A stretch of DNA of 13,243 nt, from positions 1 to 13,243 of the forward strand of contig MU621502.1 of the NCBI GenBank assembly GCA_025399215.1, given 5' to 3'. The notes beneath the pieces were generated by a model, which worked only from the letters and a program-made list of their open reading frames with translations, had not been told where the DNA came from and made no database searches. The position numbers and the translations under genes were made by a program. This DNA is from Globomyces pollinis-pini. Its lineage: Eukaryota > Chytridiomycota > Chytridiomycetes > Rhizophydiales > Globomycetaceae. This document shows, one piece after another, positions 374 through 12,685 of this stretch (its first letter is position 1; each line of letters begins with the position of its first letter).

Positions 374-871
374 ATGTTCTCTGCTGTAGTCCTCGCCCTT
401 GTCTCTTCTTCCATCGCTGCCCCAGCTTATGGTTACGATAAAGCTGCTCCAGCTTACGTGACCCCAACCACCACTCCTTGTGCTGAAACTACTGCTCCAA
501 TTGCTACTCCAGCTTACAACCAAGTCGCTCCAATCGCTACTGCTCCATACAACACTGCAGCTCCAATCGTAGCAACCACTCCTTGTGAAACTCCAAATGT
601 TTACGCGACTGCTGCTCCAATCGCTACTCCAGGTTACAACACTGCTGCTCCAATTGTAGCAACCACTCCATGTGCTGAAGCAACTCCAGCTGGTTATGCA
701 CATGCAGCTGCCACTCTTGCTGCTGATGCTTATGGTTATCAAGCACCAGTTGCTACTCCAGGATACGCTGAAGCAACTCAAGCAGCTTCCAGCTACAGTG
801 TCGTTTCTGGTGCATCCTCAAGTACTTTTATTGGATCTGCTATGATGGCTATTGCCTTCTTTGCTCTTTAA
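374..871 (+). CDS. Secreted Ala/Pro/Tyr-rich repeat protein, probably GPI-anchored in the cell wall
   Basis: This intronless gene encodes 165 aa. Residues 1 to about 16-20 form a signal peptide (hydrophobic core AVVLALV, then SSSIAAPA). The body is low-complexity and built from AAPI(V)AT, TPGYN and TTPC(A)E motifs. The only three cysteines, C36, C71 and C100, each sit in a TTPC motif. The C terminus has small residues (SGASSS, 145-150) followed by a hydrophobic tail (FIGSAMMAIAFFAL), the layout of a GPI-anchor signal, with a likely omega site near 146-148. I infer a structural or adhesive wall protein displayed at the surface. No enzymatic domain is visible. Codons are richer in C-ending forms than in the housekeeping genes, which fits strong expression from the TATA promoter. 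I do not recognise a named family; the AAPAY-like repeats recall insect cuticle proteins but are probably convergent. Confidence 0.85.
   Translation: MFSAVVLALVSSSIAAPAYGYDKAAPAYVTPTTTPCAETTAPIATPAYNQVAPIATAPYNTAAPIVATTPCETPNVYATAAPIATPGYNTAAPIVATTPCAEATPAGYAHAAATLAADAYGYQAPVATPGYAEATQAASSYSVVSGASSSTFIGSAMMAIAFFAL
527..674 (+). repeat. In-frame direct repeat, two 61-bp copies 87 bp apart
   Basis: Copies at 527-587 and 614-674 are nearly identical apart from scattered substitutions, and are offset by 87 bp (29 codons), which keeps the reading frame. Each encodes APIAT..(P/G)YNTAAPIVATTPC. A shorter, more diverged unit precedes them at about 494-520. The array has the look of tandem duplication inside a wall-protein gene, a region likely to vary in copy number between strains. 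Confidence 0.85.
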
Positions 872-1242: not shown

Positions 1243-2487
1243 TTATTTCTGTAAACAGTGCTTTTCAAATGATGCTTGTAATTTTGACTTATCCAAATCT
1301 CTACCTAAGAGAATTATATGAAAAATAACTTACCAATAAACACTAACTTGTTCTTTCGCTCTTCAGATCCCCAACTGATTCCGACTTGAACATCAAAAAG
1401 TTCTTGTACGGCCTGGACTACATGTTTACTGTCACTATTTTCCATATTAATCAATGCTTTAAATCGGATGACATCCATATTATGATCAGGAAAGCCAGGT
1501 GCAAATTTATCCCATAATAATGTCTGTATCCAAGTATTCAATTCTTTGTTCTGAACAACTCCTGATAAATAAAATACAATCGTCTTGACTGAAGAATCGA
1601 TAGAATGACTAGTGTGTTGTGCATTTTGCTCAGAAAATGGATCGACTTGGTTTTGATCAAATGAGTGTAAATCGAATATGAAGTCTATCGGAACATTGGA
1701 TCGAGTCACTCTTTCAATTACTGCCACTGAGTTGATGGATTTAAGTTGGATTTCTAAATTGACTCTTGTTTCTTCATCAATCAAGTCAATTTTATTTAGT
1801 ATAATCCTGTCTGCCAGTGCAATTTGCTTAGTTGCTTCATTGATGGATCCTTCTTGTTTTTTCTCTCCCAGATACTTTGAAATATATTTCGAATCTACTA
1901 CAGTCACAATACCTATTGATTAGCAATCTTCTAGTATCACCATCCAAATAAAGCTCGCTCTGAAGTGCATCATCCAACCAAAACATTGAAGCGATTGGTC
2001 CTGGATCTGCTAATCCAGTTGTTTCTAACAAAACGTAATCAAAATGAGCATTCTTCAAAAGTAAGTTTTCAATAGCTTTCACACCCATATCTCTAAACTG
2101 GTTAATCCAATTGACCTCGATTACTTGACAGAGCAGCAGAAACAACCATTTGCCAACTCTAACCATTCTTCAGTGATTTTACCATCCTTTCCCAAACTCA
2201 AACTTTTGTCGATGCCAGTACCTAATCATTAGATTCAACAACTGCCCAAACTTTCTCCAAATTCATTTAAAATAACTGCAATTTTCTTTTGTTGATTTGG
2301 GTCATTTAAAAGTCTCATAATCAATGTTGTTTTTCCACTCCCAAGAAAACCAGTGATGATCGTCACAGGTACTGGTGAACTCCTTCTCCTATACATTTAG
2401 ATGTTCTGTTATGTACTTTTGTTGTAGTGAGGGAGTTGGTACAGCGTCGGGTACTAAATCTGGAATATCATCATCACTTTCTGCCAT
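1243..2487 (-). CDS. ZNG1: ZNG1/CBWD-type CobW-family zinc-chaperone GTPase
   Basis: Spliced product of 365 aa. Exons on the minus strand, in order: 2487-2417, 2388-2252, 2221-2125, 2092-1941, 1912-1334 and 1304-1243. The introns are 28, 30, 32, 28 and 29 nt. The G domain shows Walker [10 protein letters not shown] (37-45), LNEFGES, the metal-binding CFCC motif (96-99), ETTGLADP (125-132) and NKID (192-195), followed by a CobW C-terminal domain ending in LVFIGRDLDK. The closest family I know is eukaryotic CBWD/ZNG1, a GTP-driven zinc transferase that loads methionine aminopeptidase 1. Length and order of motifs fit that family. The N terminus has IPDLVP where ZNG1 proteins carry a Cys-Pro-x-Leu-Val-type docking motif, so the Cys is missing. 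The start at 2487 gives an acidic N terminus and is the only ATG compatible with the first intron. A minus-strand AATAAA lies at 1231-1236, just past the stop. Confidence 0.93.
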
Positions 2488-4702: not shown

Positions 4703-5435
4703 ATGGCAATGTATATGCAATTATTAGTATTTTTGTCAACGTTGGTCAGCTGTCAGCAGATTGGAGAGTTCTCACCACCAACAAAATGGGATATTAGATC
4801 ACCTTGTCCTGCATTCAATACGATGGCGAACCATGGTTATTTGTAATTCAATGGATGATTAATTCTGTAGTCCTAGATCAGGTTCTGAGATTCCTGCACA
4901 GCAAATTGTTGATGTATTTCGTGAACAATTTTCGTTAGATCCAGAGTTATCAAATTTATTGATAAGTAAAGCTTATTTATTGAATATTGGCAATCCAATT
5001 AAGGAGACGATTAGGTTGGATCAATTAAGACTTCACAACGCGATGGAACATGACTCATCACTTGTTCACAATGATTTTTACTTTGGACCACACTACATAG
5101 TAAACCAAACACTAGTAGACGGATTGATAAATTCATCCAAAGATGGTAAATATTTAACGACGAATGATATTGGGGAATTTCGCAAAGAAAGATATGATGA
5201 TTCCAAACGAAATAATCCAACTTTTGATTTTTCGTACATTCGACAAGTTGCAACATTTGGTGAATCAGGAGTTATGTACGCTATTTTCGGCAATGATAAA
5301 GGCATCCCCAACGAGTATATCCGATCCTTCCTCGGAGAAAACAGACTGCCAAAAGAATTCACGCCAAAGAAGTCTTTGGTTGGACAGAAAACTACCGAGA
5401 ATTTTGCATACATAATCGCTTGGGCATCTTCATGA
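4703..5435 (+). CDS. Secreted heme-thiolate peroxidase (chloroperoxidase/unspecific peroxygenase family)
   Basis: Spliced product of 234 aa: exon 1 4703-4842, a 28-nt intron, exon 2 4871-5435. A signal peptide spans about residues 1-17 (core LLVFLSTLVS). The Peroxidase_2 hallmark follows: PCPAFNTMANHGY with Cys35 as the expected axial heme ligand, then PRSG. The Glu-His-Asp motif (EHD, 106-108) is in NAMEHDSSLVHNDFYFG. Glu178 in ATFGESG is the best candidate for the distal acid-base residue. Potential N-glycosylation sites are NQT (125) and NSS (134). The size matches short members of the family, which use hydrogen peroxide to halogenate or oxygenate organic substrates outside the cell. The real substrate cannot be read from sequence. 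ATG codons 1, 3 and 5 are alternative starts; all keep the signal peptide. An AATAAA (5445-5450) follows the stop. Confidence 0.92.
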
Positions 5436-5472: not shown

Positions 5473-7726
5473 ATGACTGATAATGTGATTGAAAACTTTG
5501 TGGAAAAACAACTGAATTATATCGATAATGAATTAGAATCTGAAATAAATGAAGTATCCTGGAGCGTTGTTAAGCATTAGGCCAATCAGTCAAATCAATC
5601 GATAACCCAATTACAAAAAAGAGGTGTTTTATTGACAAACCTAAGATGTTCGTCAATGAAAAGTGGACTAGGTGGGAATACCTTATTACAATTAGAGTCG
5701 CAAATTGGATTAAATAAATTGCCTTTTCATAAATTCAAGTAAATCTGAAGTAATTAAATGAAAGGATAGGGGATATATTAGAGATAAAGCAATTTAAAAG
5801 CGCAAAGTCTGCTTCTAAAACTACATCTAGCGATGATAATGAATTCAAATTACTTGGAACAGTTACAAAGTTGCAAGATTCACTAATTGTACTAAGCATT
5901 AAAGAAGAGCTTCCGAATGATTTACCATCTTCTTTTCAACTGTACTAAAAAGTATCATTAACAAAATAGGTTAAAATTAGCCAACACCGTGTCGTATAAA
6001 AGAATGAAGTATGCTTTAAATGATTTGCAGAAAATAAGAGAGGAACCTCCAAAACTAATACGTGTACTGTTTAACCTGGATCGCCCAACAGTTTCGAAGA
6101 ATAACTTCAGTGATACTGAATTCATAAATCAACAACTTAATGACTCCCAAAAAGATGCAGTACGATTCGCATTGAATGCCAATGAGCTAGCTCTTATTCA
6201 CGGACCACCTGTAAACTCGCTTCGGAAATAACACAAATAGGGTACATGAATCATGTATTGATTACCTCAGGGACAGGAAAAACTCAGACTTGTGTGGAAA
6301 TCCTTCAACAGTTAAGCAAATTGGGCCTGAGACTGCTAGTATGTGGTCCTTCCAACATAAGTGTTGGTATTTGATCTTTTCATTGGTAATATCACTAGAC
6401 AATCTTGTTGAACGACTGGGCAAAAGTAAATTGGATATGTTACGAATTGGCCATCCTGCGCGAATTCTAGAGAGTGTTTTGCAACATTCTTTGGATGTTA
6501 GATTAAATTCATCAGATGAAGGTCTAATTGTGAATGATGTCAGAAATGAATTGAATGCCACTTTTAAAGAGATAGAAAAGACAAAGAGAAAATCAGATAG
6601 ATATAAGCTGTACCAAGAAGTAAAGCAGTTAAGGAAAGAAGTAAGATCGTTCAGTCTTAAATGAATCAGGTAAAAACCAGAGAGAAAACTGTGTTGAAAA
6701 CGCTAATCAAAAATGCCAAAATCATTTTAACCACCTTAAATGGTGCTGCAACTCATTTACTCAAAGATGAAGAATTTGATGTGGTGTTAATTGATGAAGC
6801 ATCCCAGGCATTAGAAGCTGAGTAGAAGTTGTTATGATTTGATGATAGGTGTTGGATTCCAATTCTGAAGGGGAAAAAGCTCATATTGGCAGGCGATCAT
6901 AAACAAGTTTGTGTTCTTCGTTTAATTCCAGTTACCACCAACAATTAAAAGTGAATCCATAATCGCTGAAGCACTTTCTGTAACCCTCTTTGATCGCTTA
7001 TTAGGTTTACATGGTGCTAAAATCAAAAAACTTTTGAATGTACAATATCGAATGGTATAAACTTGGAAGTTAAATTGTGTAGCACTCTGATATCATGAAT
7101 TTTTCTTCGGAGAATTTTTATAATGGTAAACTAACCTGTGCAGCAGGTGTAGAATCAAGGCTCTTGGTGGATTTACCAGGTGTGGTTGAGTCGGAAGAGA
7201 CAATGATTCCATTACTTTTCTTCGACACCAATGGCCAAGGTTTTCATGAATTAAATGATGAGGAGACTAAATACAATGATGGCGAAGCTGCAACAGTTGT
7301 AAACTACATAAAACTTTTATGTGATGCTGGAATTGAAGACAGTCAGATAGCAGTTATTTCACCATATGATGGTCAAGTAAGTAATCACTTTTCCTAAACA
7401 GACAGGTGAGATTATTAAAGAAACTATTATCCGATCAATACCAGAACCTCGAGCTAGGGACAGGTACACCATATTAAATGTAATATTTAATTATAGTGGA
7501 TGGATTTCAAGGAAGGGAGAAAGAAATTGTCATTTTATCTCTTGTTCGGTCAAACGACAAGGGGGAAGTTGGGTTTCTAAAAGAGTACCGTAGATTAAAC
7601 GTTGCTATCACAAGGCCAAAACGGCATCTTTGTGTAATTGGAGACTCCATGACTTTGAATCGAGACCCATTTCTCAAAAAGATGGTCGATTATTTTGAAT
7701 CTGTAGGGGAAGTCAGATATCCATGA
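5473..7726 (+). CDS. HCS1: SF1 (UPF1-like) DNA/RNA helicase of the IGHMBP2/Hcs1 family
   Basis: Spliced product of 636 aa from 13 exons: 5473-5553, 5581-5738, 5765-5941, 5970-6210, 6241 (one base), 6271-6366, 6399-6640, 6670-6821, 6849-6906, 6932-7054, 7083-7376, 7406-7463 and 7497-7726. The other introns are 25-33 nt. Motifs in order: Q-motif region LNDSQKDAV, Walker A HGPPGTGKT (216-224), Walker B DEAS (374-377), AGDHKQLPPT (397-406), QYRM (440-443), [10 protein letters not shown] (561-570) and VAITR (596-600). The N-terminal beta-barrel region (KRGVLL...[10 protein letters not shown]) also matches the family. The protein stops after the helicase core, so it lacks the R3H and AN1 zinc-finger domains of animal IGHMBP2, like yeast Hcs1, which copurifies with DNA polymerase alpha. 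The start codon lies only 37 bp after the peroxidase stop, so its promoter must overlap that gene. Confidence 0.94.
6211..6270 (+). other. Two abutting mini-introns flanking a one-nucleotide exon (G6241)
   Basis: The upstream exon ends CAC GGA CCA CCT (His-Gly-Pro-Pro) at 6210; the downstream one resumes at 6271 with GG ACA GGA AAA ACT. Intron A is 6211-6240 (30 nt, GTAAAC...AATAG) and intron B is 6242-6270 (29 nt, GTACAT...CTCAG). The lone G at 6241 completes the Gly codon (GGG) of GPPGTGKT. A single 60-nt GT-AG intron from 6211 to 6270 would give CCT GGA CAG and shift the frame. Both halves fit the 24-33 nt size of the other introns in the window, and the middle has a proper acceptor (TAG) and donor (GTACAT) around the G. 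Confidence 0.8.
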
Positions 7727-7765: not shown

Positions 7766-10700
7766 CTAAATCGTTCGTTTTGTACTAGAAGTGGCCAATT
7801 GATATAGTTCATCATAATTACCACTTTCTCTGCACATTTGAAAAAATATACCATTCTCCTTCACCATCAAATCTTTTGGACGACCGATTTCAGCTACTTT
7901 ACCCGCGTCCATTACTATAATTTTGTCATAGTCTATGACAGTTTGAATCCGATGCGCTACTGTTAAGATTGTACACTTAAACTCTTGTCTTATTGTGTCT
8001 TGGATTTTCCTATCTGTTTCTGGATCAACTGATGCTGTAGCTTCATCCATAAATATTATGCTTGATGTGCGCAAAAGAGCTCTTGCTAAGCATAATAACT
8101 GTCGTTGCCCTTGAGAAAAATTCTTGCCATTTTCTGTCACAGTAGTATCCAAAGATACGGATGATATTGAATTATTTTTCGAAGTTTGAATAGATTCTAG
8201 TACATGGGTGTGTTTCAGAGCATCCCAAATTTTAGAATCCGAATGCTCATCCAATGGATCTAAGTTGGAGCGAAGTGTTCCTATAAAGAATTATGAACCG
8301 ACTCAATTATACCTTCAAAGAGAATAGGATCTTGAGGTATAATGGTTAACTTAGACCTTAAGTCATGTAACCCCAATTTGGATATGTCAATGTCGTCAAT
8401 AATAATTGTCCCATTCACAAATGGCAAAATTCTAAAAAAAGCCATGGATAATGTTGATTTGCCTGCTCCAGTTCTTCCAACAATTCCGACCTTTTCCTTT
8501 GAATCTATCGTGAAGGACACGTTTTTTAAAACTTCGGGTAATTCTTCAGAGTATTTTACTGATAGATTTTCTACAATTATTCTACCATAATTTGGCCACT
8601 AAAATCAATCAAATGTTTCATACATTAGCTGGCGCTACTGTCCCATCGAATGAATCAAAATCTTCTTTTTTCAATTCTGAATATTCATCAATTCGTTCAA
8701 CAGAGCTATGGATCAATCTAATTTATCTATTTACTTCAAAGACATTTCTAGAGTTGAATGATACTGAATAATATCCTACACATAAAATCCAGAATATTAC
8801 AGTTATGGTAGTGGTAATTTGAGAAGCAAAATTAAATGCCACTCCTGCCCAACCTGCTGACAGATTGGAGTACAACACAGATCCTCCAGCCAAGAATACA
8901 ATAAATGCTGAGAGAATGCTAGTTCTGACCATCAACTAAATGGTTAAAAAAAGAAGATCGTTTATACCCATCTATTGGTAACGAATAGGTAGAAATAAGC
9001 ACGATTATTGTTCTCGACTTTATCTAAAATTTCTTTGATAGATTTTCGTTCTGCACCGTAAGCTCTTATAGACGAAACACCACTATTGTTAAGCAATAAT
9101 CTTTACATCAACGTTTCGCCGAATTGAGCATAAATTGGAGAACTCAAGACACTTTCAATTCGTTTGAGCTCTCGGGAACTTTGAAGATAAAATTTGGCAA
9201 TTCGGTAGTAAAAATACACTATCGTTAATTCAAATATTATGGTACAAAAAAACAAAGTAGATATAAATCCTGGAGCCACAAATGATACCAAAATCACTTT
9301 TCCAATGCAACCAACAATAATAGTTCCAAAATGGGCACATAACCACATAATTGTTGAATCAATCTCATCAATATCTTTGCTAAATCGATTGATAATTCTA
9401 CAGAGTTATTGAAGTAAATTACCGACCCACTGGAGTAATTTCAAAGAAGCGCATTGGAGATCCCAGAATTGAATGAAGCAGACTTGCATGAAGTGTTCTT
9501 GAAGCCTTTGCACCACCGATATACTGCACATAGACTTTAAACCAAAAAGGTATAAACTCAAATGCACAAATGATCCCATAGATTCCAATATAAAAAGTAG
9601 AATTTGAACTGGGTGGTAGAGAAAAAATGGTTGTGATTGAAAATGTTGTGCGCAATTTGTCTGTCCAAATTTCAACCCACCAGTTGGCCAAATAATCAAA
9701 AATGGTCATGCTGCCATAAGTTATTGCAGTGCCGACAACAAATAATAGACCCCCACAAGCCATGATGTATGATTTATAAGTTTTGAATTTTACTGCTCCA
9801 ACCACTTTAGATTCTTCATTTTTTATGGAAGTTTCGTTAATCAACTGCACTTCACCAGAATCTTCATGGTTAGAACCAAAAGGTTCAACTTGGGATTGCT
9901 GGTTTAACTCTTTTAATGAATCATCATTGGCGACATCATTTGGTACTCCTTGATTTGAGACAGATCCGTTTCTCATTATCACAATCCAATCAGACTTAGG
10001 GAACACCAAATTAATAGCATGCGTAACAAGTATAACCGTTCTTCCTTTCAAAACTTTAAGAATACAGTTGTTAAGTAAATGTTTGGCAGTTGGGGCGTCA
10101 ACTGCTGATAAAGGATCATCCAATAAGATGATAGATGCGTTCGAAAACACAGCTCTCGCTGAAAATGTTAATGCGTTTAAGCTAGATTACCTAATGATAT
10201 ACGCTGCTTTTGGCCACCTAATGATGAATTTCGCATAATTTACCTGATAAATTGACTCCTTTTTCTCCTATTTCCGTTTGGTCACCATCCCCTAGATTTC
10301 GTAAATCAGTGTTAAGGGCACATGCCCGTAATATCTGTAGGTATTTTACTTCATCAAAAGTTTCGCCAAACAAAATATTCTCACGAATCGTTCCATTCAT
10401 TAACCAAGGAGTCTGAGGGACATATGCGATATCACTCTTTGGACAGTCATTGATTAGATGATGCTCAGAAATGGAATAGGTCCCCTCGTAACACTTTAAT
10501 TCTTACATAAACATATCAATAAATACCTCCAAGTAATGTAAGCAGTAATGAAGTTTTCCCAGATCCTGTCGCACCAATTATCGTTGATATTTTGCCCTTT
10601 GGAAATACGATGTTGATGTTTCGCAACTTAAACTTTTCCGGTTCATCTTGATCTGCTTGCAAAGGAGTTTCTTCAGTTGGCATGGCTTCTTTTTTTTCTG

Positions 10701-12685
10701 CAGTATAGTAACCAAAAGTAGCGTTCTTAAATCCTATCCAAGTGTTTGGATCACGATTGGAAGATGAATTCTTATCACTGTACTTTTCTAACTCTTGCTC
10801 CTCGAGAAACTTATTTATTCTCCCTAAAACAATGCGAATATTGAGGATTCTTGAAACAGATTCACTTAAAGAACTCAATCTCCAAGTCACCTAGGTATCA
10901 AATCAAACTTTAAAGTTCACTGTTGCTAAGAGATTCATGCTTGTAAAAGCTGTTGCCGCATCTAGTGTATTCCCGGCCACCACCTGTAATTAATAGAATG
11001 ATTCTTACAGTGTAAAAAATTAAAGATACAATAACAACCAGAATGCTTGCACACCATGATATACTCCATAAGCTTAGTATATGCATCCAACCATTAAATA
11101 GAACTTTCAACTCATTATCACGAGCTTCCAAAATTCGTCTTATGAACTGATTTTCCCACGCCATAAATTTGATAATTCGAATTCCCTTCGAGTCAAAGTT
11201 AAAATACTTTACCTGTAAAGCTTCATTTGTTAATTGAATTCTTCTATCGCACAATTTTTTACTCTCTTTCTGACATTTATAATACTTGGCAAGAGTCCAG
11301 GAAGATAAAGGACCACTTAATATTAAGACCACCAGTCCTGATAATGCTGGAGCCCCCATAACACTAATTAAACCAACGAGCGAAAAAGCTATTGAAAAGG
11401 GAATCACAATGATCATGGTGTGCAAATCAGTGATAAAGTATTGAATCGAATGGGTGTCACTGGACATTAAATTGACAATTTTGCCCTAAGATTAGCCAAA
11501 TCAACATACTTGGCTAGCTTTATCATCGTTATCTTCGTCATCTAGCTCAACTGCCGATTCCGTTCGTTTTAAACTCTTCTGGAAAATTTCATATATTAGT
11601 ACTGTCCTTAATCGGATAGACCAATGTCGGCCATTCAAATCGATTTGCGAATTAAGCAGTTGTTCCACCGATTTGCAGAAAAACATCAAGATCAAGAGTA
11701 AGAGGGTATAATAATAATGATTGAGGTCATCTGTTTCCGAAATCTGTTGAATTGATCTCAAAATCAGGTTTATAAACAATGGATCTGCAAAAGATAGAAT
11801 TGTCGAGATAAACGACACAAATACTTGAAATACCATAAAAGACCTAGTGAATCTAATCAACTTCCAAATGATCTTGCTCGGCTTCGATCTATACTGTTAC
11901 TTAAGATTGATAATACTTGAATTTAACCCAATCTGAAATAATCTCATCAACTTGGTCCGACTTTGGTAAGTGAGGAATATCAACACTCTCTAACGGCTTT
12001 TCCGATCCACTTTTTAATAATGAGTTAACCCAAGAAAATGACAATTTGGAATAAAATGATGCTGTCGAATACTCACATGGATATCTTCCATCTATCTTCA
12101 AACTGTTGATTAATTCTGCATTTCTGGATGGATTAATGGAATCTAGCAACACCAATAATAAAGTTAAAAGAAAAGATACCAAGACTGAGTAATCAAATGA
12201 GTTTAAGTTAGTCTGTTGTTTGTAGATTAAAACGATACAATACGTTTGCCCAGTCAATGCAAGAAGGTAGGACATAGTATGATATCTTGGTAAAGTAGGT
12301 TTTGGAATTATTACTGAATATGTAATAAGCAATAGTATTAACCATCCAGATGATTGTAATACAACAAAGGTGATAAAATTCAAATAATTCAAATAAAAAC
12401 TTGATACTGATAAGTACAAGTTGATAATCACTTGAAGGAGTGTAATAAAGAATAAAGAGTTGTCAATCTTGGTACATTCTGTTGATTCCGTGATCACATC
12501 GTCACTGACATCTCGCTGTTGGTATAAATAAACCTTTACGTATTCCCTTAAATTATTTAATGTAAACAACAGTGCAGAGAGCGTTCCAAGGTAACTAAAC
12601 TCTCCAAATGATCCAAAAATTGTCATAAAAAACAAAACTTGATTGACCGTTTTTACACAGATACACCTAATATACCAAATTCCAT
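7766..12685 (-). CDS. Full-length ABCC (MRP/Ycf1-type) ABC transporter
   Basis: Spliced product of 1493 aa. Minus-strand exons: 12685-12667 (tentative), 12637-11917, 11888-11510, 11485-11213, 11185-11009, 10983-10921, 10890-10527, 10501-10244, 10217-10191, 10158-9423, 9397-9107, 9082-8968, 8935-8801, 8775-8735, 8705-8624, 8598-8313 and 8280-7766; introns 24-32 nt. The layout is TMD0 (about five helices, to residue 170), linker, TMD1, NBD1, TMD2, NBD2. NBD1: Walker A GATGSGKT (650-657), LSGGQ (750-754), Walker B ending DD (774-775), the Asp-for-Glu change usual in ABCC NBD1. NBD2: GRTGAGKST (1268-1276), FSQGQ (1377-1381), MDEA with catalytic Glu1402, H-loop His1432. [21 protein letters not shown] and [11 protein letters not shown] mark TMD2. 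The family exports glutathione conjugates, bile acids or drugs across vacuolar or plasma membranes; the substrate here is unknown. If exon 1 is wrong, translation starts at 12626 (MTIFGSF). Confidence 0.92.
10191..10217 (-). other. 27-nt exon carrying most of the NBD1 ABC signature
   Basis: Between a 26-nt intron (10218-10243) and a 32-nt intron (10159-10190) lies a 27-nt exon. It completes the second-last Gly of LSGG and encodes GQKQRISL plus the first base of the next Ala codon. Without it the NBD1 signature motif LSGGQ would be cut after its first Gly. Skipping is frame-neutral (27 = 9 codons), so an isoform lacking the signature could be translated. Confidence 0.85.

Follow-up and report, generated by a model that had tools for sequence, protein, structure and literature searches.

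Few nuclear exons of a single nucleotide have been described, and the account given here follows the available parts of the papers cited. In Arabidopsis thaliana, APC11 contains a constitutive single-nucleotide exon that is essential for the reading frame, which was demonstrated by altering the base and finding it in the cDNA (Guo and Liu 2015, PMC4674806). CYP621A of Fusarium has a one-nucleotide exon confirmed by transcript reads, which its authors describe as the second example (Nelson and Syed 2026, PMC12940212). Related arrangements include stwintrons, in which two U2-type introns are nested and removed in consecutive reactions (PMC12403724), and abutting donors in Lipomyces, for which removal in one or two steps is described (PMC7138796). 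At the ratchet points of Drosophila, a juxtaposed AG|GT forms a seeming zero-nucleotide exon and removal is stepwise; these points sit in long introns and depend on a cryptic downstream exon (PMC8605326). The available part of PMC9860276 held nothing on nested or tandem introns.

Our phrase searches of open-licence PubMed Central papers returned two nuclear gene families with a one-nucleotide exon, APC11 and CYP621A, and no reports of micro-intron arrays with 0-nt exons. A one-base exon is also reported for cox1 of placozoan mitochondria, and further examples may exist among mitochondrial genes and in surveys of plant microexons. The first-pass annotation of this DNA had stated that few single-base exons are known, citing Arabidopsis; this stands, except that a fungal case, CYP621A of Fusarium (2026), now joins Arabidopsis among the nearest precedents.

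The window, a 13,243-nt stretch of the chytrid Globomyces pollinis-pini, contains a candidate for the same class at G6241, inside the Walker A motif of a helicase gene. As in APC11, a one-base exon is needed for the frame; the APC11 exon sits within 422 nt that used to be regarded as a single intron, whereas G6241 is flanked by introns of 30 and 29 nt and the genome seems to contain several cases. As in CYP621A, the case is fungal and has the form AG-G-GT, and the base belongs to a glycine codon within a conserved motif. CYP621A is one family, with a 139-nt stretch in F. graminearum, whereas several gene families and units of about 30 nt are involved here. Stwintrons share the feature of two introns at one place, but they are nested, while the introns here are adjacent and separated by 1 or 0 nt. 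An earlier comparison of this site with stwintrons is useful as an analogy and fails as a class assignment, because no contiguous GT-AG excision at 6211-6270 gives the frame. Drosophila ratchet points resemble the AG|GT joints at array sites elsewhere in this genome, where 0 nt separate AG from GT; at 6240-6242 the separation is 1 nt. Unlike ratchet points, the units here are 25-35 nt and leave no evident room for a cryptic exon.

Removing twelve GT-AG introns from the helicase gene yields one open frame of 636 aa. Its features are as follows; each intron outside 6211-6270 was placed by the spliced frame.

5473..7726, + strand: SMUBP-2/IGHMBP2-type helicase gene, ATG to TGA, 13 exons including the putative 1-nt one, 636 aa
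5554..5580, + strand: sister intron, 27 nt
5739..5764, + strand: sister intron, 26 nt, AAAG acceptor
5942..5969, + strand: sister intron, 28 nt
5970..6210, + strand: exon ending ...LIHGPP in phase 0 (spliced frame, SMUBP-2 alignment)
6211..6240, + strand: predicted first micro-intron, 30 nt, GTAAAC...AATAG (spliced frame, parse enumeration)
6241..6241, + strand: putative one-nucleotide exon G, base 1 of the glycine codon GGG after HGPP in Walker A (spliced frame, parse enumeration; recurrence elsewhere in the genome)
6242..6270, + strand: predicted second micro-intron, 29 nt, GTACAT...CTCAG (spliced frame, parse enumeration)
6271..6366, + strand: exon restarting (G)GG ACA GGA AAA ACT = GTGKT (spliced frame, SMUBP-2 alignment)
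6367..6398, + strand: sister intron, 32 nt
6641..6669, + strand: sister intron, 29 nt
6822..6848, + strand: sister intron, 27 nt
6907..6931, + strand: sister intron, 25 nt, GTTTGT donor
7055..7082, + strand: sister intron, 28 nt
7377..7405, + strand: sister intron, 29 nt
7464..7496, + strand: sister intron, 33 nt

All ten sister introns are GT-AG and 25-33 nt long. In the one at 5739-5764, the AAAG end is demanded by the frame, though a TAG ends five bases downstream (window 5739-5769). The spliced protein carries the Pfam domains SMUBP-2_HCS1_1B, AAA_11 and AAA_12 and the Walker A motif GPPGTGKT, and by these features the predicted product is a helicase of the SMUBP-2/IGHMBP2 type (SF1, UPF1-like). 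Residues 5-634 align to SMUBP-2 (PDB 4b3f; E 9.5e-163, phmmer), with Walker A free of gaps. The best matches in the protein collection (P0001-P0004) are 54-56% identical, and the nearest organism-labelled matches are all chytrid: Polychytrium aggregatum at 48%, then Nowakowskiella, Entophlyctis and Synchytrium. These matches by themselves suggest a source in or close to the chytrids. In a relative's protein, P0007, about 30 foreign residues lie within Walker A (HGPPGTG...GKT) and resemble a retained intron, so this relative may also have an intron in Walker A, a few codons further on.

Four neighbouring coding regions were noted in the window. At 374-871 (+) lies an ORF of 165 aa that is repetitive, rich in Ala, Pro and Thr, and signal-like at its start; it had no Pfam match. 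A CobW-type protein is encoded at 1314-2166 (-), with PF02492 and PF07683 in the part 1314-1907. Directly 5' of the helicase is a Peroxidase family 2 region (4959-5435, +; PF01328), and an ABC transporter gene with several introns (7766-12635, -; PF00005, and PF00664 in two pieces) is convergent with it.

On re-reading, the coordinates and letters given earlier for 6211-6270 were borne out. CCT runs up to 6210 and is followed by GT from 6211; AATAG closes the first unit at 6240, G6241 comes next, and the second unit opens with GTACAT at 6242 and closes with CTCAG at 6270. The upstream exon ends CAC GGA CCA CCT and the frame restarts GGG ACA GGA AAA ACT; the first G of that GGG would have to be 6270, the last base of CTCAG. 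Splicing in silico confirmed the earlier claim that excising 6211-6270 whole loses one base and that the split restores GPPGTGKT: the joined sequence is one base short without G6241 and reads HGPPGTGKT with it. A single 60-nt GT-AG intron was rejected on this loss of frame.

We enumerated every parse of the site with zero to two GT-AG introns of 15-110 nt each and a frame open throughout. Fourteen parses were open, and 6211-6240 plus 6242-6270 alone gave HGPPGTGKT; among the other 13, one gave HGPPGKT and twelve lost or broke the motif. The one-nucleotide exon is thus the sole canonical solution that keeps Walker A. GT at 6255 was rejected as a second donor, being absent from all 14 open parses. 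Single intervals that restore HGPPGTGKT have the ends CT-CT, TG-TC, GT-CA or TA-AG, all non-canonical. Together with the SMUBP-2 alignment, the enumeration indicates that G6241 is required for the reading frame of the conserved Walker A, and the base is flanked by AG and GT with both adjoining introns canonical (AATAG-G-GTACAT, units GT...AG).

The inner split alone is weak evidence, because 4.0% of random 60-nt introns of the same composition contain an AG-N-GT that divides them into units of 24-36 nt. The case for the one-nucleotide exon, argued from sequence, is carried by unit length, by the exact frame and, as the main argument, by recurrence. With regard to length, 30 and 29 nt fit the ten sister introns, as the first-pass annotation had claimed, while 60 nt does not. 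The intron-model scores of the two units are low (-1.4 and -4.0), though they fall within the range of the ten sister introns (-5.5 to 9.3). A branch-like TTGAT, with its A nine bases before the last base, is present in the second unit; a YTRAY branch motif was looked for in the first unit and none was found. The two units are mutually dissimilar (score -2.7 vs a mean of 4.5) and therefore not recent duplicates.

Recurrence was assessed with the pattern TAG-G-GTAW with flanking units of 25-35 nt, using units of 39-49 nt as a length control. Genome-wide, there were 33 matches against 9 in the control; the window site is outside the 33, as its flanks differ (GTAC, TCAG). With A, C or T as the middle base there were 76 sites (109 minus 33) against 54, and with two bases, NG, 34 against 17. 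The one-base G sites differed from the A/C/T sites (33:9 vs 76:54; Fisher, P = 0.026) and not significantly from NG (33:9 vs 34:17; P = 0.25), and NG showed no clear difference from A/C/T (P = 0.40). The excess at one-base G sites is modest, and single cases weigh more than the count.

Thirty of the 33 G sites were examined; of the other three, two are copies of the same repeat and one is an overlapping variant. Among the 30, six behave as one-base G exons, five are something else, and 19 fall in neither class, many of them without a coding signal. The six candidates rest on clear homology (SDR, DnaJ), on Pfam matches below cut-off (MFS, mannosyltransferase) or on the frame alone (two):

L046: short-chain dehydrogenase (SDR), ...AESTF-G-KLNIIFNNAGI, glycine codon G|G|T; PDB and Pfam alignments run through the joint
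L047: DnaJ protein with DUF1977, ...DEAFK-A-LSHAWTVLG, codon G|CG; homology runs through the joint
L053: MFS transporter, ...LIAFQ-G-ILSCG; MFS_1, residues 6-107 on profile 246-347, E 1.8e-7, below the curated cut-off
L056: mannosyltransferase-like, ...WHIL-G-VPCTDEFE; Mannosyl_trans3, E 2.4e-4 and 7.1e-4, below cut-off
L048: RING-like by eye; frame alone
L049: candidate with a third unit; frame alone

For L046, L047 and L048, the one-base exon was also called by the gene model. In L047 the two units resemble each other, with a score reached by 0.3% of random intron pairs. Of four joints tried in L049, the frame was open only with the 1-nt G and with a third, 34-nt unit removed. The MFS piece had no match in NCBIfam; Pfam gave no match for L048, L049, L055 or L040, and PDB nothing useful for L048 or L056. 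The earlier reading of a one-base exon is supported by the recurrence of this structure in further genes, where conserved protein sequence flanks it on either side.

Several matches were rejected. Coding sequence runs through the second supposed unit in L057 (TAP_C) and through the first in L058 and L059 (gene model) and in L063, where NGILADEMGLGKTIQT was read by eye. We take this L063 stretch, NGILADEMGLGKTIQT, to be an SNF2-like motif. L065 is a single intron by the gene model. In L055, which belongs neither to the candidates nor to the rejected sites, the frame would skip the G and the coding signal is weak. Eight of the 76 A/C/T sites were examined: five look like coding sequence or a single intron and three have no coding signal, so none of the eight is a convincing non-G one-base exon. 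Every surviving one-base candidate has G, in an examination aimed mostly at G sites.

Micro-introns placed back to back, with no base between them, also occur in this genome. A genome-wide search for GTAW...TAG|GTAW...TAG with 25-35-nt units gave 222 + 276 = 498 matches, against 36 + 44 = 80 for the same pattern with units of 39-49 nt; this ratio is an upper view of the excess, because single introns beside chance matches can inflate the 25-35-nt count. A reversed-pattern control (459 vs 498 matches) is not composition-matched, so the 39-49-nt units were used instead. Compared with the one-base A/C/T sites (each 25-35 vs 39-49 nt), the 0-nt sites gave a Fisher P of 1.6 × 10−11, and the excess at 0 nt is firm. 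Triples and quadruples are visible as overlapping matches. Arrays in individual genes are listed below.

L033 7077-7590, + strand: NTF2 gene, with a 30+42 pair at 7274-7346 between V and S of KLVSLPF (model and homology)
L033 3698-3750 and 4280-4333, - strand: UPF1 gene, two pairs, 26+26 and 26+27 (homology-checked)
L033 8142-8266, + strand: RasGAP-like gene, four head-to-tail introns of 29+31+31+33 nt (Pfam PF00616, E 9.5e-8)
L042: GH47 (EDEM-like) gene, pair called by the gene model
L040: triple array called by the gene model in a gene without a Pfam match

Spliced NTF2 aligns to NTF2 of PDB (1gy7) through the joint with no gap, and spliced UPF1 aligns to UPF1 of PDB (2wjv), gapless at both paired-intron places. 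The second unit of the NTF2 pair, at 42 nt, exceeds all single introns in the final gene model, which reach 36 nt at most. UPF1 is the nonsense-mediated decay helicase, and its gene carries two back-to-back micro-intron pairs with no exon between. Units 2 and 3 of the RasGAP-like array are clearly similar; a search of that piece against PDB gave no useful match. A PIN1-like triple array (L035) proved to be coding sequence up to its stop, a false model call, and was dropped. In 0-nt arrays, the protein cannot separate unit-wise from whole-chain removal.

Unit similarity was computed for 98 pairs (100 of the 498 matches, minus two overlapping variants), among which rows from the same array share units. 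Adjacent units in these listed pairs had a mean similarity of 6.8 against 4.3 for shuffled pairs, and 15 of the 98 exceeded the 99th percentile of shuffled pairs, which suggests tandem duplication behind part of the listed arrays. YTRAY occurred at 6-18 bases in 86 of 183 listed array units, compared with 22% when shuffled.

To place these lengths in the context of the genome (18.5 Mb in 459 contigs), we used a gene model trained on the genome itself, on 24 and later 28 loci with the window held out. The final model contained 222 introns, 220 of them 19-36 nt, a sharp peak that is partly circular because the model trains itself. The remaining two, of 72 and 124 nt, each consist of consecutive GT...AG units joined at AG|GT (30+42 and 29+31+31+33). 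In the first pass, with a flat length prior, 46 of 63 introns were 24-36 nt and four were 59-60 nt. The model also proposes a 74-nt intron in the DnaJ gene (L047, 319-393, -), possibly another composite. In the window helicase it called just the piece 7095-7397 and none of the introns, most of which score below the training introns; the homology model is the basis for this gene.

Taking these lines together, 6211-6270 probably consists of two adjacent spliceosomal micro-introns (30 + 29 nt) flanking a real one-nucleotide exon, G6241. The rival that deserves most attention is an assembly base error, such as a G lost at CCT(G)GTAAAC, with which 6211-6270 would be one ordinary intron of about 60 nt. 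The 4.0% of random introns that contain an AG-N-GT split count in its favor, but the same arrangement with conserved frames is present in other genes of the genome, and because of this recurrence we regard an error as unlikely. It also fits poorly with the lengths of the ten sister introns (25-33 nt) and of 220 of the 222 model introns (19-36 nt, partly circular) and with the in-frame joining of every other exon of the helicase. A single intron near 60 nt was confirmed nowhere, the four at 59-60 nt belonging to the first model pass. A true frameshift in a decaying gene copy would likewise put a single base at stake in an invariant motif; given that all remaining exons join in frame, that no stop interrupts them and that the motifs are intact, we give this next to no credence. 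Among 20 candidates scored, no closer second helicase copy was found, the best other being a 37%-identical UPF1-like gene. Origin of the contig from another organism was rejected on GC content (0.357 vs 0.301-0.397 in 14 other stretches), which is a weak test.

The remaining rivals accept the sequence and differ in how it is spliced. One intron of 59 nt with the non-canonical ends TA-AG (6212-6270) or GT-CA (6211-6269) would be removed in one step. Since positions 6211 and 6241 are both G, the one-nucleotide exon and the TA-AG intron predict identical mRNAs, and mature mRNA alone cannot decide between the two; G-type sites elsewhere are equally ambiguous because every unit begins with G. Such an intron would nevertheless need unusual ends and unusual length together, it leaves the inner TAG-G-GTAC unexplained, and ends of this kind occur in none of the ten other helicase introns, which makes it an improbable explanation. 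In a nested stwintron, an internal intron would split a splice site of the external intron. Two consecutive excisions at one place are indeed known in fungi, as the available part of PMC12403724 describes, but nested excision removes one contiguous G(T)...AG stretch and no such stretch restores the frame here, so that we consider a stwintron very improbable.

For the preferred reading of two micro-introns around G6241, we propose a mechanism based on intron definition. Each intron of about 28 nt would be recognized as a unit across the intron; exon length would hardly matter, and the exon between two units need hold no signal. Exons of 0 or 1 nt would then be tolerated because each ~30-nt intron is recognized by itself and removed stepwise. 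The spliceosome covers far more than 60 nt, so the two window introns would not be served at once, and their stepwise removal can soundly be inferred. If the first unit left first, CCT-G|GTACAT would remain, and if the second left first, AATAG|GGGACAGG would remain, in each case with sites intact; on paper, either order works.

The 1-nt exon would represent one end of a wider class, that of the arrays in which two to four micro-introns follow one another with 0 nt separating them (AG|GT). Removal of a whole chain from GT to AG would lose the base, and the 1-nt exon therefore indicates that the units of an array leave one by one rather than as a single long intron, with the caveat that one-step TA-AG excision would give the same mRNA. 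As for the G, AG|G and G|GT both suit common splice contexts. The available part of the CYP621A paper makes the same point on G and suggests the loss of an exon-edge base followed by adoption of a cryptic AGGGT (PMC12940212). Here, the second intron may have been gained one base from an old intron, or the edge of a 0-nt array may have shifted by one base.

At the scale of the genome, we lean towards the view that exon size has been given up as a constraint: introns of about 28 nt would be removed singly by intron definition and would have multiplied next to one another, in part through tandem duplication, to form arrays with two to four units. The exons between them would number hundreds of zero nucleotides and at least several of one nucleotide. 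Taken singly, the window case would be an addition to the very small known class of one-base exons. The new part is the presence of several one-nucleotide exons in one genome, beside tandem micro-introns. Unlike the 0-nt arrays, a one-base exon can separate unit-wise from whole-chain removal, which gives it a wider relevance. In such genomes, gene models that apply customary minimum lengths to exons and introns will disrupt conserved motifs. Judging from the sequence, exons of zero and one base appear routine in this genome, suggesting a splicing machinery that takes no account of exon size. With several one-base exons and many zero-nucleotide junctions between micro-introns, such a genome would be a natural test of minimum exon size, of intron definition where introns are smallest, and of intron multiplication.
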